Of a stretch of 22,720 nucleotides of DNA, positions 6,139 to 12,178 are shown one piece after another. Location of the stretch: IMG/VR virus record IMGVR_UViG_3300042934_000216, positions 1 through 22,720 of that record. The stretch is one strand, 5' to 3'. The translations under genes and the position numbers were made by a program. Under the pieces are notes generated by a model. That model ran no database searches. It had not been told where the DNA came from and saw only the letters and a program-made list of their open reading frames with translations. The stretch comes from a virus. The first letter of the stretch is position 1. Each line of letters begins with the position of its first letter.

Positions 6139-6351
6139 ATGGCTGATCGTGCGGCGGAGCTTGAAGACCTGCGGGCGTTCCTTTGGGAGTCGATTCGGGC
6201 TGTCGATCCTGACAAGCGTGCGCCTCTCGCGAATCAACTGCGGGCGACGCTGACGGAGCTCGCGGAGTTGACCAAGGGTTCTGGGAAGGTTGGTGACCCG
6301 GTTGACGAAATCACCGCCCGTCGCGCTGCTCGGAGAGCAGGCACCGCCTAG
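6139..6351 (+). CDS. terminase small subunit (putative)
   Basis: A 70-residue, helical, charged protein from ATG 6139 (GGAGG at 6130-6134). LEDLRAFLWESIRAVDPDKR and LANQLRATLTELAELTKG match the short coiled helices of small terminases that precede TerL in actinophages. It ends in an Arg/Ala-rich tail and overlaps the large subunit start by about 59 bases. It would bind the packaging site and recruit TerL. The call rests on position and general character more than on a specific motif. Confidence 0.65.
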   Translation: MADRAAELEDLRAFLWESIRAVDPDKRAPLANQLRATLTELAELTKGSGKVGDPVDEITARRAARRAGTA

Positions 6352-7762
6352 GGTTCTGGTTCTCCCGGATCGTTCGGTTGCGAACGACTGGGAGGACGTT
6401 GCTGACCTGAGTGCTGGCTATGGCCTGTCGCTTGATGGGTGGCAGGAGGATGTTCTTCGTGCTGCGATGGGTGTCCGTTCGGATGGTACGTGGGCGGCGA
6501 AGCAGATTGGTGTTTCGGCGCCGCGGCAGAACGGCAAGTCGCAACTGATTGTGGCTCGAGCGTTGGCCGGCGCGCTGGTTCTGGGTGAGAAGAAGATCAT
6601 CATCTCTGCTCATCAGCAGGACACGGCGCGGGAGACGTTCGCGAAGTTCCTTGAGATGTTCGACGCTAACGATCTGTTGCGGTCGAAGGTGAAGCAGGTG
6701 ATGAACGCCCTCAACCGGGAGTTCATCAAGTTCACGAACGGTGCGGAGATCCGGTTCAAGGCCCGGTCTACTGCTGGTGGTCGTGGCTTCTCGTCGGATC
6801 TGCTGTTGTTGGATGAGGCGCAGATTCTCGGGATGCCGGCGTGGGTGTCGATCAACTCGACGATGTCGGCGCGCCCGAATCCTCAGATTTGGCTTCTCGG
6901 CACTCCGCCTACGCCGGAGGATAACGGCGAGGTGTTCACGTTCATCCGTGATGCTGCGATGGCTGGGCGTTCGTCGGCTCTCGCGTACCTTGAGTGGTCG
7001 GCGGAGCCTGACGATGATCCTGCGTTGTCTGAGACGCGGGCGAAGGCTAACCCTGCCTGGCATACGCGCATCAATCACGATGTCGTGCAGGGCGAGTTTG
7101 AGACCTACCCGGCGATCCGGTTTGCGATGGACCGTCTGGGCATCTGGGCTACCGAGCTTGAAATCTCGGGTGCGATCTCGTCTGCTACGTGGGGTGGCCT
7201 TGCTGTTGACGAGGCTCCTGCGGGGCAGCTTGGCGCGTTCGCTGTGGCGTTCTCGGCCGATGGCATGCGGTACTCCGTCGCCGGCGCACTGACTCACGGT
7301 GAGAACGCGCACGTGGAGCTCATCAGCGCTGACGTGGGTTCGGTTGATGCCGGGCTTGCACCTCTGGCGGATTGGTTCACGGAGCGGGTCGGTGGAGTTT
7401 CCCGGTGGCGTCGTGTCGAGTCGATTGTGATTTCGGGGCGTGCTGGCGCGGCCGTGCTGGCGCAGCTTCTCAAAGAGCGTGGTGTTTCTGAACGACGGAT
7501 CACGCTCCCATCGACGGCTCAGTATTTCGAGGCGTGTGGTGCGCTGCTCGAGCGGTGCAGGCAGGGCACGGTCTCTCATCTTCGCGAGGGGCAGGAGCGG
7601 CTGGATGAGTCCGTGCTTGGCGCGGTTCAGAAGCAACGCACGCGTGATGGTGCGTGGGGTTGGGAAGTACCCGGTGGGGATGAAACACCGGTTGAGGCAG
7701 TGAGTTTGGCGCTACTCGGCGCGCGAACTTCGCGTCGGGGCACTCCCCGCCGCATCTACTAA
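6293..7762 (+). CDS. terL: terminase large subunit
   Basis: A 489-residue protein. The start is set at GTG 6293, although TTG 6290 is possible. Walker A is APRQNGKS (residues 76-83, Lys82) and Walker B is LLLLDEAQ (Asp174-Glu175), the ATPase that drives DNA packaging. A coupling-type LLGTPP motif follows. The C-terminal half carries the nuclease domain: FAVAFSADG probably holds the first catalytic Asp and the DGAWGWEVPGGDE region near the end the last. Length is normal for this family and there is no intein here. It acts on the portal at the empty head. Confidence 0.95.
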   Translation: MTRLTKSPPVALLGEQAPPRVLVLPDRSVANDWEDVADLSAGYGLSLDGWQEDVLRAAMGVRSDGTWAAKQIGVSAPRQNGKSQLIVARALAGALVLGEKKIIISAHQQDTARETFAKFLEMFDANDLLRSKVKQVMNALNREFIKFTNGAEIRFKARSTAGGRGFSSDLLLLDEAQILGMPAWVSINSTMSARPNPQIWLLGTPPTPEDNGEVFTFIRDAAMAGRSSALAYLEWSAEPDDDPALSETRAKANPAWHTRINHDVVQGEFETYPAIRFAMDRLGIWATELEISGAISSATWGGLAVDEAPAGQLGAFAVAFSADGMRYSVAGALTHGENAHVELISADVGSVDAGLAPLADWFTERVGGVSRWRRVESIVISGRAGAAVLAQLLKERGVSERRITLPSTAQYFEACGALLERCRQGTVSHLREGQERLDESVLGAVQKQRTRDGAWGWEVPGGDETPVEAVSLALLGARTSRRGTPRRIY

Positions 7763-7773
7763 AGGGGGTTTGC

Positions 7774-9120
7774 ATGGCCGTTACGCCTGCTGAATGGCTC
7801 CCGGTATTGGCTAAGCGGCTCGATGACCGGCGTGCCCGTGTCGATCTGCTGATGTCGTATGTGACGGGCGATGCACCACTGCCGGAGATGAATCGGGCTA
7901 CCCGTGAGGCGTGGCAGAGGTTTCAGCGTGAGGCTCGGACGTCGTTCGGGTTGCTCGTGGTTGAAGCGTTGACTGATCGGTTTGTTCCGAACGGTGTGCG
8001 GGTCGGCGGCGATGATGTGTCTGAGGCGACGGTTGCCGCGCGGCGGATCTTCCGTGATAACCGCCTTTCGGTGGTGTTCCCGGATGCTGCGCGTGATGCG
8101 TTTACGGCGTCGGTTGGATACCTGATTGTCGGCGAGGACTCGGGCAAGGCGGTTATCACCGCCGAATCGCCGCAGTTCGTCATCACAGCGCCCGACCCGC
8201 TGCGTCCTTGGGTTTCTCGAGCGGCCCTCAAGGTCTATCGGGACTCAGACGAGGGAGCTGACTTCGCGTTCGTGTGGGCTGACGGTAACCGGCAGCTGTT
8301 CACGCGCCCCATTGCGGACCCGTCCTCATCCGAGCCTTACAACTTCACGTCTGAGGGTGAATGGCTCTCGGTGGATGAGCCGCAGCGGTATTCGGGGAAC
8401 GTTCCCGTCTTCGCCCTTGAGAACAAGGGTGGTGTGGGTGAGTTCGAGCCCCACATGGACATCCTGAATCGCATCAACCGCAACCTGCTACAGCGTCTTA
8501 CCACTGTGGCGATGCAGGCGTTCAAACAGCGCATGGTTGAGGGCGGCTTGCCTGAGACTGACAACACCGGCAACGACATGGACTGGGCTCAGGTGTTCGA
8601 GCCTTCGCCGGGTGCGCTGTGGGATCTCCCCGAGGGCATCAAGGTCAGTGAGCTCGCTGATGGTTCCGCTGGGATCATGGCGATGCTTCAGGCGGAGGAT
8701 GCGGATCTTCGCGCGTTCGCTGCGGTTACTCAGACGCCTCTCCCCATGCTGATGCCTGACGGTGCGAACCAGTCTGCGGAGGGCGCTCAGTTCTCCCGCG
8801 AGGGCTTGGTGCTGAAGGCTGAGGACCGGGTGGACCGGTTCAAGCCGGCGCTCGCTCTGGCACTCGTCTACGCACTCCGCATCGAGGGGATCAAGGATGT
8901 CGACGACGTGGAGGTTCTGTTCGAGCCTGCGGCTTACGTGACTCTCTCGGAGAAGTACGCAGCGGCAGCGCAGGCTTCCGGGCTTCTCGCGATCCGCACG
9001 ATTCAGCGGCAGATCCTCGGCATGTCTCAGGCGGCTATCGCTGAGGACGAGGTGAACCGCGCGGCGGAGCAGTTGCAAGCGTTCACGTTGACGGGCGGGG
9101 CGGATGCCGAGCAGCAGTGA
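7774..9120 (+). CDS. portal protein (SPP1 gp6-like)
   Basis: A 448-residue protein from ATG 7774 with AAAGGGGG upstream. It starts PAEWLPVLAKRLDDRRARVD and contains FGLLVVEALTDRFVPNGVRV, SPQFVITAPDPL and NQSAEGAQFSREGLVLKAED, features of the SPP1 gp6-type portals of actinophages. It would form the dodecameric ring through which TerL packages DNA. The gene overlaps the MuF-like gene by 17 bases, as expected for portal-MuF pairs. Confidence 0.93.
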   Translation: MAVTPAEWLPVLAKRLDDRRARVDLLMSYVTGDAPLPEMNRATREAWQRFQREARTSFGLLVVEALTDRFVPNGVRVGGDDVSEATVAARRIFRDNRLSVVFPDAARDAFTASVGYLIVGEDSGKAVITAESPQFVITAPDPLRPWVSRAALKVYRDSDEGADFAFVWADGNRQLFTRPIADPSSSEPYNFTSEGEWLSVDEPQRYSGNVPVFALENKGGVGEFEPHMDILNRINRNLLQRLTTVAMQAFKQRMVEGGLPETDNTGNDMDWAQVFEPSPGALWDLPEGIKVSELADGSAGIMAMLQAEDADLRAFAAVTQTPLPMLMPDGANQSAEGAQFSREGLVLKAEDRVDRFKPALALALVYALRIEGIKDVDDVEVLFEPAAYVTLSEKYAAAAQASGLLAIRTIQRQILGMSQAAIAEDEVNRAAEQLQAFTLTGGADAEQQ

Positions 9121-10654
9121 CCGGATCATCCTCGGGTACGCGGCGGCGGTCGCTGATGTTCGTAAGCGGGTAATCCAGTTCGCGCGTACCGCATGGCTGG
9201 GCATGCCGGACTACCGGGATGCGGACGTTGACCGTCTCGTGCGGCTCGTCACTCCAGTTGTGCTCGCAGGACAGACCCGCGCGGCATCCCTGACGGTTGC
9301 GTACCTCCAGGCGCTCGCCACATCGGCTGGCGTGACGCTCACAGGCGCGGTAGACGCCTCTGTAATGGCCTATCGCGGCGTCCCAGCGACGGACGTGTAC
9401 CGGCGTCCTGCCGTGACGCTATACACGGCCCTAGCGAACGGCGTTTCGTTCACCGATGCGAAGGCGCAAGGGCTTACTCGGCTTGTGTCGCTGGCGTCTA
9501 CGGACATTCAGCAGGCGCGCAACCGGCAGGCCGCAGCATCCATCGCCGGCTCAGGGTTCAAGTCGTTCTCTCGTGTGCTGTCTGGCACGGAGGACTGCGA
9601 GCTCTGCACGGTAGCCGCTGACCGGACCTACTACCGGGGCGACCTGATGCCGATCCATCCAGGCTGTGTACCCGGCGACTCAGTACTTTCGCCCATAGCG
9701 GGCGGAAGCACCCATCTTGCCGATTTCGCTTGGGGTGAGGTTGAGGCTGTTTCGCGCCGACTGTTCGAGGGTGAACTCATCGAGTTCGTCACGGCCAGAG
9801 GCGATGAGGTGCGCGTCACCCCGAATCACCCTGTACTCACCGCGAAGGGCTGGATTCCGGCTCACCTCCTGAGCGAAGGCGACACAGTATTCAGCAGCGG
9901 CTCGCGTGAGCGGGTAGTTACTGGTGGCCCATACGTAAACGAGCGCCCAGCCTTCGCCGAGGATGTATTTGACGCGGCGCGGATGGCGTTCCCCCTTGTA
10001 CGCGTGCCACTCGCCGCCGAGGATTTCCACGCCGACGCTGCCGAGGGTGAAGTCGAGATTGTATATACCCACGGCAACTTCCCGACGCCACGGAACGCCG
10101 ATCCTGTCGAGGGAGCGAGCGAACTTGGCTTCGTGCACGCTCATGGCGGGCGGGTTGCGCTCGATGGTAGCGGCGCGCTTGGCCCGCTCATCCCACGTAG
10201 CCTTTCGGCCCTTGGTAGCGGAGTGGGCGGCGGCTACCTGAGCGGCGATCTGCTCCGGGGTCATCCGACTGGCTCGGTTGAGGCCAGCGGAACTGCGTCC
10301 GCGCGGTTCGATGCCCCTGCTGGTGAGTTCTCGCCGGAGAGCGCCTCGGTCTACGCCAGTCAGGGATTGGATCTTGTACGCCGACTCGCCAGCGACGTAG
10401 AGGGCGACCGCGTTGTCAAGCTTCGCCGGGTCGGTTGGTCGGGTCATGTGTTCAATCTCCACACTCGTGAGGGCTGGTACTCATCCAACAATCACATTGT
10501 ATCAAATTGTGACTGCGGCGTGGCCCCTAACGGCTTCGGGCGCGCAAGCGAGCCGCTAGAGGGCGCCCGCGAAACTGCCGTCCACGAACACGGGGAATAC
10601 GGCCCGACCCTTGGCTGGGCTGGGGACACCTTCACCAGCCGGGACGACTTCTAA
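9104..10654 (+). CDS. MuF-like minor head protein interrupted by an intein
   Basis: A 516-residue precursor from ATG 9104. Residues 1-187 and 469-516 are the extein: a helical N-terminus, CELCTVAADRTYYRGD, then HPG joined to CDCGVAP. Splicing would restore the HPGCDC motif typical of MuF/minor head proteins that follow the portal. Residues 188-468 form a Hint/intein domain, inserted at the most conserved point of the protein, the usual choice of inteins. The mature protein would be 235 residues. It probably sits inside the head and helps assembly or DNA ejection. The same DNA is read on the other strand (see 9680-10447). Confidence 0.9.
   Translation: MPSSSDRIILGYAAAVADVRKRVIQFARTAWLGMPDYRDADVDRLVRLVTPVVLAGQTRAASLTVAYLQALATSAGVTLTGAVDASVMAYRGVPATDVYRRPAVTLYTALANGVSFTDAKAQGLTRLVSLASTDIQQARNRQAAASIAGSGFKSFSRVLSGTEDCELCTVAADRTYYRGDLMPIHPGCVPGDSVLSPIAGGSTHLADFAWGEVEAVSRRLFEGELIEFVTARGDEVRVTPNHPVLTAKGWIPAHLLSEGDTVFSSGSRERVVTGGPYVNERPAFAEDVFDAARMAFPLVRVPLAAEDFHADAAEGEVEIVYTHGNFPTPRNADPVEGASELGFVHAHGGRVALDGSGALGPLIPRSLSALGSGVGGGYLSGDLLRGHPTGSVEASGTASARFDAPAGEFSPESASVYASQGLDLVRRLASDVEGDRVVKLRRVGWSGHVFNLHTREGWYSSNNHIVSNCDCGVAPNGFGRASEPLEGARETAVHEHGEYGPTLGWAGDTFTSRDDF
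9680..10447 (-). CDS. homing endonuclease (HTH + Vsr-like nuclease) encoded antisense inside the intein
   Basis: A 255-residue leftward protein from ATG 10447 (GTG 10462 also in frame); GGAG (complement of 10457-10460) is spaced 9 bases. Residues 6-47 are a helix-turn-helix (VALYVAGESAYKIQSLTG, then VDRGALRRELTSRG). Residues about 100-185 match a Vsr/DUF559-type PD-(D/E)xK nuclease: SVHEAKFA (E106), YNLDF (D132), VEILGGEWH (E141, H148), RRVKYILGEGWALVYVW (K160). Vsr-like homing enzymes associated with inteins and introns are an established family. Its codons are exact reverse complements of intein codons; the stop TGA is the intein's Ser193 TCA. High-GC DNA produces empty mirror frames, but this one has two ordered, recognisable domains. 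Confidence 0.82.
   Translation of the reverse strand: MTRPTDPAKLDNAVALYVAGESAYKIQSLTGVDRGALRRELTSRGIEPRGRSSAGLNRASRMTPEQIAAQVAAAHSATKGRKATWDERAKRAATIERNPPAMSVHEAKFARSLDRIGVPWRREVAVGIYNLDFTLGSVGVEILGGEWHAYKGERHPRRVKYILGEGWALVYVWATSNYPLTRAAAEYCVAFAQEVSRNPALRGEYRVIRGDAHLIASGRDELDEFTLEQSARNSLNLTPSEIGKMGASARYGRKY
10496..10504 (-). promoter_or_regulatory. antisense extended -10 promoter for the homing endonuclease
   Basis: Read leftward the sequence is TGATACAAT, an extended -10 (TGnTANNNT) one base away from TGATATAAT, in an AT-rich island of GC-rich DNA. Transcription would start near 10489, giving about 40 bases before the endonuclease ATG at 10447. No good -35 is visible, which extended -10 promoters tolerate. 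The element lies in the codons for the last intein residues (I-V-S). Confidence 0.45.
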
Positions 10655-10659
10655 CACTT

Positions 10660-10703
10660 CCCACTCATGTGGGTTGGCCTCACCGAAACGGTGGGGCTTT
10701 TTC
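10660..10703 (+). terminator. tandem hairpins with U-tract after the MuF-like gene
   Basis: CCCAC (10660-10664) / GTGGG (10669-10673) is followed by a 9-bp stem, GCCTCACCG (10677-10685) / CGGTGGGGC (10689-10697), loop AAA, and TTTTT. This is a strong rho-independent terminator in the middle of the head operon, just before the scaffold gene. It would lower, not abolish, readthrough, or mark a separate capsid transcript. Confidence 0.75.
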
Positions 10704-11317: not shown

Positions 11318-12178
11318 ATGGCACTTGGCGACATCATTCCCGACCTTTGGTCGGCACAGCTGCTGGTCGCGCTTCGCAAGAACGCGGTCGGCGTGAGCCT
11401 CTGCAACCGTGACTACGAGGGCGAGATCCGCCGTCAGGGTGACTCGGTGAAGATCACGTCGATCGACAACGTGACGATCAGCGACTACACCCAGCACACG
11501 GACCTGACCGTGGAAGCCCTCGGGGACGCCACTCGTTCGCTGCTGATCGACAAGGCGAAGTCGTTTGCCTTCTCGGTGGAGCGCATCGAACAGGTGCAGG
11601 CCGTCGCAGGCTCGTCCGCCATCGACCAGGGCCTCGACAACGCGTCGTACCAGCTCGCGGATGTCGCTGACGCGATCATTCTCGACGCGATCAACGACGC
11701 CGCGGAGGCAACGGGCAACGACATCGGCACCGTCGCGGTCCACACGACGGCACAGAACATCTACGACGCGTTCGTGGACCTCAACAAGGTTCTGTCGGAC
11801 AACAACGTCCCGAAGTCGGGCCGTTACGCCGTCGTCTCGCCGGCCATCATGGCTCGACTGACGAAGCTCAACCTTCTGGTCGGCGCGGGCGATGGCCTCG
11901 GTGCCGATGTTCGCACGTCCGGTTGGGTCGGTCGCCTCGCGGGTCTCGACATCTACGAGTCGAACAACCTTCCCGCCGTGACCGACGCTGCTGCCACTGG
12001 TGGCCTCGTGATCGCGGGTCACCGCATCGCGACCACCTACGCGGACCAGATCGTTGAGACCAGCCGGACCCCGATGGAGCGTCGCTTCGCCGACCTCGTC
12101 AAGGGCCTGCACGTCTACGGCGTGAAGGTGACCCGTCCGACCGCGGTCGCCAAGGTCGAGTTCGACGCGACCGCGTAA
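11318..12178 (+). CDS. major capsid protein
   Basis: A 286-residue protein from ATG 11318 (AGGAGACAGAA upstream). It starts MALGDIIPDLWSAQLLVALR and contains GDSVKITSIDNVTISDYT and VKGLHVYGVKVTRP, features of the HK97-fold coat proteins of siphoviruses, in the P22-coat/actinophage branch without a long delta domain. Position after the scaffold and strict codon bias towards C/G third bases fit a highly expressed capsid gene. A long mirror frame on the other strand is an artefact. Confidence 0.92.
   Translation: MALGDIIPDLWSAQLLVALRKNAVGVSLCNRDYEGEIRRQGDSVKITSIDNVTISDYTQHTDLTVEALGDATRSLLIDKAKSFAFSVERIEQVQAVAGSSAIDQGLDNASYQLADVADAIILDAINDAAEATGNDIGTVAVHTTAQNIYDAFVDLNKVLSDNNVPKSGRYAVVSPAIMARLTKLNLLVGAGDGLGADVRTSGWVGRLAGLDIYESNNLPAVTDAAATGGLVIAGHRIATTYADQIVETSRTPMERRFADLVKGLHVYGVKVTRPTAVAKVEFDATA

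Follow-up and report, generated by a model that had tools for sequence, protein, structure and literature searches.

A phage intein with a predicted homing endonuclease encoded codon on codon on the opposite strand

Introduction

Mobile inteins such as PI-PkoII and TliVMA carry a LAGLIDADG or HNH endonuclease in frame, on the same polypeptide as the splicing (Hint) domain. EDxHD, Vsr-like homing endonucleases are represented by I-Bth0305I (3r3p), which was described as a mobile intron protein. Fractured genes have their homing endonuclease next to split inteins. To our knowledge, neither I-Bth0305I nor the endonucleases of fractured genes are known to overlap an intein in antisense. Two further arrangements are comparable. 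Group I introns of ribosomal DNA (rDNA) carry antisense His-Cys homing endonuclease genes (PMC9548176), and an insertion in the methylase gene of phage ShiLan, stop-free in the host frame, hides an HNH homing endonuclease out of frame (PMC11855218). Inteins with nuclease domains, EDxHD homing endonucleases, antisense intron endonuclease genes and out-of-frame phage HNH enzymes are thus all known already. Here we analyze a viral stretch of 22,720 nucleotides (IMG/VR record IMGVR_UViG_3300042934_000216, positions 1 to 22,720; hereafter the window), in which a minor head gene is interrupted by an intein, and the strand opposite the intein encodes a putative homing endonuclease in exact mirror register.

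Our preferred reading, to which we give a probability of about 0.92, is a mobile intein that has its homing endonuclease on the antisense strand, in place of an in-frame domain. Like PI-PkoII and TliVMA, the element has a Hint domain, a fixed insertion in a conserved motif and, as predicted, endonuclease-linked mobility, but its nuclease would be a separate protein from the opposite strand that shares codons with the splicing domain. The nuclease core resembles I-Bth0305I by profile and fold, and here lies antisense to an intein. In the rDNA introns the endonuclease gene is likewise antisense within a self-splicing element, but the other strand is a ribozyme intron, so that there is no double coding (PMC9548176). 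The ShiLan insertion uses the same strand, a shifted frame and an HNH enzyme, without a splicing domain (PMC11855218). We considered an insertion of the ShiLan type and set it aside, since here the endonuclease gene lies on the opposite strand and a Hint domain is part of the insert. Ambigrammatic narnaviruses likewise keep a long reverse frame open opposite a coding frame (PMC6884476), whereas the reverse frame here encodes a conserved enzyme that is predicted to fold. Our literature search found no account of a homing endonuclease that is antisense to, and codon on codon with, an intein; a 2025 preprint on non-canonical phage inteins may cover part of this ground.

Large, fully antisense double-coding pairs with a recognisable function for both products are very rare. 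Because the present pair occurs in about 100 lineages, with solved relatives of both proteins and intein-less controls, selection on the two strands can be measured directly. The family offers a natural system for studying how one stretch of DNA can serve two folds, which is the Rodin-Ohno question. It also offers an explanation of how phage inteins that seemingly lack an endonuclease may move.

Results and discussion

Layout of the locus

A MuF-like minor head (head maturation) gene (9104-10654, + strand) hosts the intein, which interrupts it at 9665-10507 (+). The N-extein (9104-9664, +) matches phrog_1522 over residues 2-190 (E 2e-57), and its junction is uninterrupted in relatives with an empty site. 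The C-extein (10508-10654, +) begins CDCG and is contiguous, as HPGCDCG, in seven intein-less relatives (L156-L159 and L161-L163). The intein of 281 codons runs from Cys1 to Asn281 and is followed by Cys+1; in translation its ends read CVPGD...HIVSN, then the extein C. The - strand from 10447 to 9680 is a single open frame of 255 codons from ATG to TGA, each of them the exact reverse complement of one intein codon. Its ATG lies opposite the CAT of intein His261 in splicing block F, and its TGA opposite the TCA of Ser6 in block A.

These coordinates, the register and the numbering of the nuclease motifs (E106, D132, E141 and H148) are as an earlier note on this DNA, made by reading the sequence, had given them. 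That note had also held all splicing blocks to be double-coding, which is correct for blocks A and B only. The antisense frame starts at the His within block F, which divides this block, and leaves block G upstream. The DNA overlapping blocks F and G is leader, not coding sequence, of the antisense gene.

The antisense product

A single antisense protein gave only sub-threshold matches to Pfam and PHROGs, and the family signal emerges from the alignment. A profile of 65 antisense proteins matched the catalytic domain of the homing endonuclease I-Bth0305I (3r3p) with E=3e-7 and 3hrl with E=2.5e-5, and its N-terminal part matched helix-turn-helix (HTH) proteins. The AlphaFold2 (AF2) model of the window's product has a mean confidence (pLDDT) of 89.9, and Foldseek returned 3r3p as its top PDB match (E 1.5e-3, probability 1.0). 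The HTH segment comprises residues 7-43 (10319-10429, -), which AF2 models as high-confidence helices and which matches Pfam HTH families in several members. The nuclease core, matching 3r3p and 3hrl, comprises residues 104-174 (9926-10138, -) with E106, D132, E141 and R158. N130, D132 and E141 are shared by all 65 sequences, E106 is kept in 62, and Y129 and R158 are near-invariant. By profile and model, the antisense product is an HTH protein with a Vsr/EDxHD-type nuclease. The earlier note had read the same two domains from the motifs and would have taken a lack of any nuclease similarity as refuting; profile and fold now both point to I-Bth0305I.

The sense product

A profile of 55 sense relatives matches PI-PkoII, PI-MtuI and other inteins with E values down to 1e-9. 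Block A (9665-9700, +), block B with its TPNH motif (9800-9853, +), block F (GHVFNLH, 10433-10480, +) and block G (NHIVSN, 10487-10507, +) are all present. Cys1, T52, H55 and the terminal Asn, N281, are invariant in the 55 intein sequences, and the +1 residue is Cys in the window and in nearly all loci. In the AF2 model, the intein ends are predicted with pLDDT above 90 and the best PDB matches are inteins. Profile and model identify 9665-10507 as an intein with a Hint fold, for which splicing is predicted.

One possibility is that the nuclease is real and the sense frame is an unspliced, stop-free passenger, as has been proposed for the ShiLan insertion. The middle of the intein would suit such a passenger, as it is weakly constrained and residues 160-215 are predicted to be disordered (pLDDT below 50). 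A passenger, on the other hand, would not be expected to conserve Cys1, TxNH, the terminal Asn and the following Cys across lineages, to fold at its ends as a Hint domain, or to be constrained more strongly in the A/B and F parts and beyond what the antisense frame explains (z 6.5; see below). We regard it as very unlikely. Conservation in the middle of the intein includes an FHGD motif opposite the nuclease core, whose F121 (F or L in 55 of 55) is the reverse complement of the invariant antisense E141 (GAA or GAG). The motif may be a mere shadow of the antisense active site.

Open mirror frames and chance

The mirror frame in the window is not by itself evidence of coding. Given codon usage as in the window, the mirror frame would be open at this locus with a chance of ~10^-1.2 (~0.06). 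The mirror of the capsid gene (11318-12178) is open over 287 of 287 codons, and that of the gene at 6290-7762 over 466 of 491. The latter two are as expected from codon usage and show no sign of coding. The earlier note had cautioned that GC-rich genes yield long mirror frames, and the caution is well founded. We therefore rejected openness in this window alone as evidence, and the case rests on the relatives.

We collected 155 contig loci of 36-72% GC, from fetched examples and from scans of viral contigs with closer sub-alignments. The mirror register (register 0) opposite the nuclease is stop-free in nearly all of them, while registers 1 and 2 hold 2-51 stops. After removal of near-copies, register 0 is without a stop in 103 of 107 loci. 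Homologous inteins keep the antisense frame open, in contrast to the stop codons that the earlier note had named as a way to overturn its proposal. Of the four loci that are not open, three (L011, L103 and L137) are free-standing copies of the nuclease and one (L022) is an unrelated HNH gene that has only the HTH in common; the strands opposite these carry 5-12 stops in the mirror register. The stops opposite the free-standing relatives indicate that a nuclease of this family does not by itself keep its mirror open. Openness across the relatives is far beyond chance.

The antisense frame might nevertheless be a non-coding by-product of GC-rich codon usage, as the other long mirrors of the window and the non-significant intein mirror would allow. 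The same register, however, is kept open at low GC, in a Helicobacter prophage (36%, 303 amino acids), Aaphi23 (42%) and Vibrio 1.197 (44%). A by-product would also not carry a nuclease profile, fold and catalytic residues, nor would its conservation exceed the level explained by the sense frame or reverse the substitution pattern, as described next. We give this explanation next to no weight.

In three loci (L152, L153 and GE_vB_M5, L015), an intact-looking intein end is accompanied by a break in the sense or the antisense frame. These breaks are probably frameshifts of assembly or sequencing; decay is also possible.

Selection on both strands

In 74 pairs of neighbouring sequences, each sense sequence was recoded synonymously with its own codon usage, codons creating antisense stops being excluded, and a converse test was made for the sense frame. 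Antisense identity is higher than sense identity in 73 of the 74 pairs (means 0.516 and 0.413). The antisense proteins are more similar than the sense frame requires, with a median z of 11.1 and a minimum of 3.3. Conversely, the sense proteins are more similar than the antisense frame requires (median z=6.5, minimum 1.9).

Substitution classes gave the same picture at the level of single codons. Single-base codon differences were scored as silent or replacing on each strand, and we pooled the ratio of the sense-replacing, antisense-silent rate to the sense-silent, antisense-replacing rate. This ratio is 0.13 in the host gene (exteins), 1.31 in the A/B part of the intein, 3.13 in its middle, 0.95 in the part before block F and 0.17 in blocks F-G. 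Blocks F-G, upstream of the antisense start, thus return to the one-strand pattern of the host gene. Between the window and its relative L001, the intein has 15 sense-changing, antisense-silent differences and 5 of the converse kind, as against 2 and 42 in the host gene (Fisher p=1e-8); the same contrast with L003 gives p=3e-10.

Purifying selection acts on both frames of the intein, and more strongly on the antisense frame. The sense constraint is concentrated at the splicing ends. In the host gene only one strand is under constraint, and the pattern flips at the intein borders. The stretch codes twice, and both frames have been kept by selection in about 100 phage lineages. The two-strand selection at codon positions that the earlier note had suggested looking for is therefore present by both approaches.

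Antisense initiation signals

In the window, a Shine-Dalgarno-like GGAG (10457-10460, -) lies 9 nucleotides (nt) 5' of the antisense ATG. Opposite block G, ~50 nt before the ATG, an extended -10-like element, TGATACAAT (10496-10504, -), agrees with TGnTATAAT at 7 of 8 scored positions. In most loci the antisense ATG lies opposite the His of block F (GHVYNL), and a GGAGG-like Shine-Dalgarno sequence lies opposite the NLQ or NLE that follows. Compared with sense-synonymous recoding in 97 loci, the combined score of start and Shine-Dalgarno sequence reaches z=13.7 and that of the extended -10 opposite block G z=12.6 (p=0.01 for the window alone). SE1, Pantoea AH01, Vibrio 1.197 and Aaphi23 have the full extended -10 consensus. 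A -35 element would fall within the host gene, but an extended -10 can do without one, which would make the promoter portable. These signals suggest expression of the antisense gene, as both RNA and protein.

Several points weigh against the preferred reading or limit its support. The window's own Shine-Dalgarno sequence is no better than those of recoded controls (p=0.58). A sigma-70 scan for two hexamers, in which a -35 was required, found no promoter, and it was this negative result that led to the extended -10 test. The catalytic His of the EDxHD motif (H148) is found in just 49 of the 65 antisense sequences. The number of stops expected per locus varies with the codon-usage reference (7.4 or 2.7 for the window). 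Finally, the loci are related and were mostly found through an antisense query, so that summed log-probabilities are descriptive and do not amount to formal p-values. The test of sense similarity given antisense and the contrast between host gene and intein are free of this selection bias.

Taken together, a mobile intein with an antisense endonuclease might work as follows. In the sense direction, the head gene would be translated through the intein, and the Hint domain, with blocks A and B from the N-terminal third and F and G from the last 35 residues, would excise itself and join the exteins HPG and CDCG. In the antisense direction, a short leader would begin at the extended -10-type promoter inside block G, the Shine-Dalgarno sequence inside block F would load the ribosome, and the HTH and Vsr/EDxHD nuclease would be made from the mirror codons. 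The nuclease would cut minor head genes that lack the intein, at their conserved HPx|C site, and the whole element would be copied in as the break is repaired from an intein-bearing gene. We infer protein splicing, cleavage of the empty site and homing by break repair from these features.

Mobility and history of the element

The seven intein-less relatives mentioned above are close relatives from the window's own metagenomes with an uninterrupted HPG|CDCG, while two others from the same metagenomes (L155 and L160) carry the intein. Between L160 and the window, the intein is 98.4% identical in nucleotides and the extein just 85.6%. Likewise, the inteins of L024 and L027 differ at 27 of 786 bases and their host genes at 278 of 1038. 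The joined head protein of SE1 has ~97% identity to that of Salmonella phages without the intein. The intein has moved horizontally. Empty sites in near relatives and near-identical inteins in diverged host genes fit the prediction of homing, and the antisense enzyme probably spreads the insert.

Alternatively, the antisense nuclease could be made without driving homing, either acting elsewhere or with its RNA regulating the head gene. The occurrence of free-standing relatives beside intein-less head genes fits such a role, yet these copies still adjoin the same target gene, and the fixed insertion codon, the empty sites and the recent transfers are features that homing would be expected to leave. 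We consider this alternative very unlikely, too. The free-standing relatives (L011, 455-1348; L103, 2473-3163; L137, 2446-3313) stand tail to tail with intein-less MuF genes.

In a tree whose root is not known, the free-standing copies are scattered over three positions among the intein-borne members. The free-standing form as the ancestral state is disfavoured by this scatter; the composite of intein and antisense nuclease appears old and the free-standing forms look derived. On balance, we lean towards the broader view that the locus represents a class of mobile element that is old, widespread and so far undescribed. Its members would pair two unrelated enzymes, an intein and a homing endonuclease of Vsr type, codon on codon on opposite strands; the splicing motifs would also serve the endonuclease gene as promoter, ribosome-binding site and start codon, and FHGD would be no more than a shadow of the endonuclease active site.

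Distribution and annotation

A tblastn search with the antisense protein matched 125 isolated-phage records (best 38.7% identity, E=8e-30), including phages of Gordonia, Salmonella, Pseudomonas, Klebsiella, Vibrio, Acinetobacter and others. Nearly all listed matches sit under genes called head morphogenesis, minor capsid, structural or hypothetical protein. The same kind of search with the sense intein recovers an almost identical set of records, more weakly, and 100 of the 107 non-redundant loci have a MuF-like N-extein. We sought members of the intein family without the antisense gene as controls, and all four of those inspected (KMB36, Rctr197k, Sejanus and Sampson) carry it.

The antisense architecture is found at other head-gene sites in E. 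coli phage KMB36 (L164) and Mycobacterium phage Sejanus (L166). The insertion sites read TLDSRTST|C in KMB36 and WV|C..CTIDGKTR in Sejanus. The intein family also occupies head genes of two Mycobacteriaceae genomes (L171 and L172), at ARTE|T, again with the antisense architecture, and at HPN|C, where the intein has Ala as its first residue. In virus Rctr197k (L165, KX853510, 1626-2978), the gene is annotated as a 'putative head morphogenesis protein', but its exteins look like a dCMP deaminase whose PCxxC motif contains the intein; a mirror antisense nuclease is present (E 1e-50). By this reading, dCMP deaminase appears to be a second host gene for the antisense architecture.

Real enzymes are lost when an annotation pipeline does not allow genes to overlap in antisense. 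In the records that we examined, annotation of the full nuclease is confined to free-standing copies, with fragments at most elsewhere. Within the head gene of Salmonella phage vB_StyS-sam (L024), part of the nuclease (2200-2601, +) has its own annotation as a hypothetical protein, QA026_gp43. In the window itself, a terminator-like hairpin with a T-run (10676-10698) lies immediately 3' of the minor head gene.
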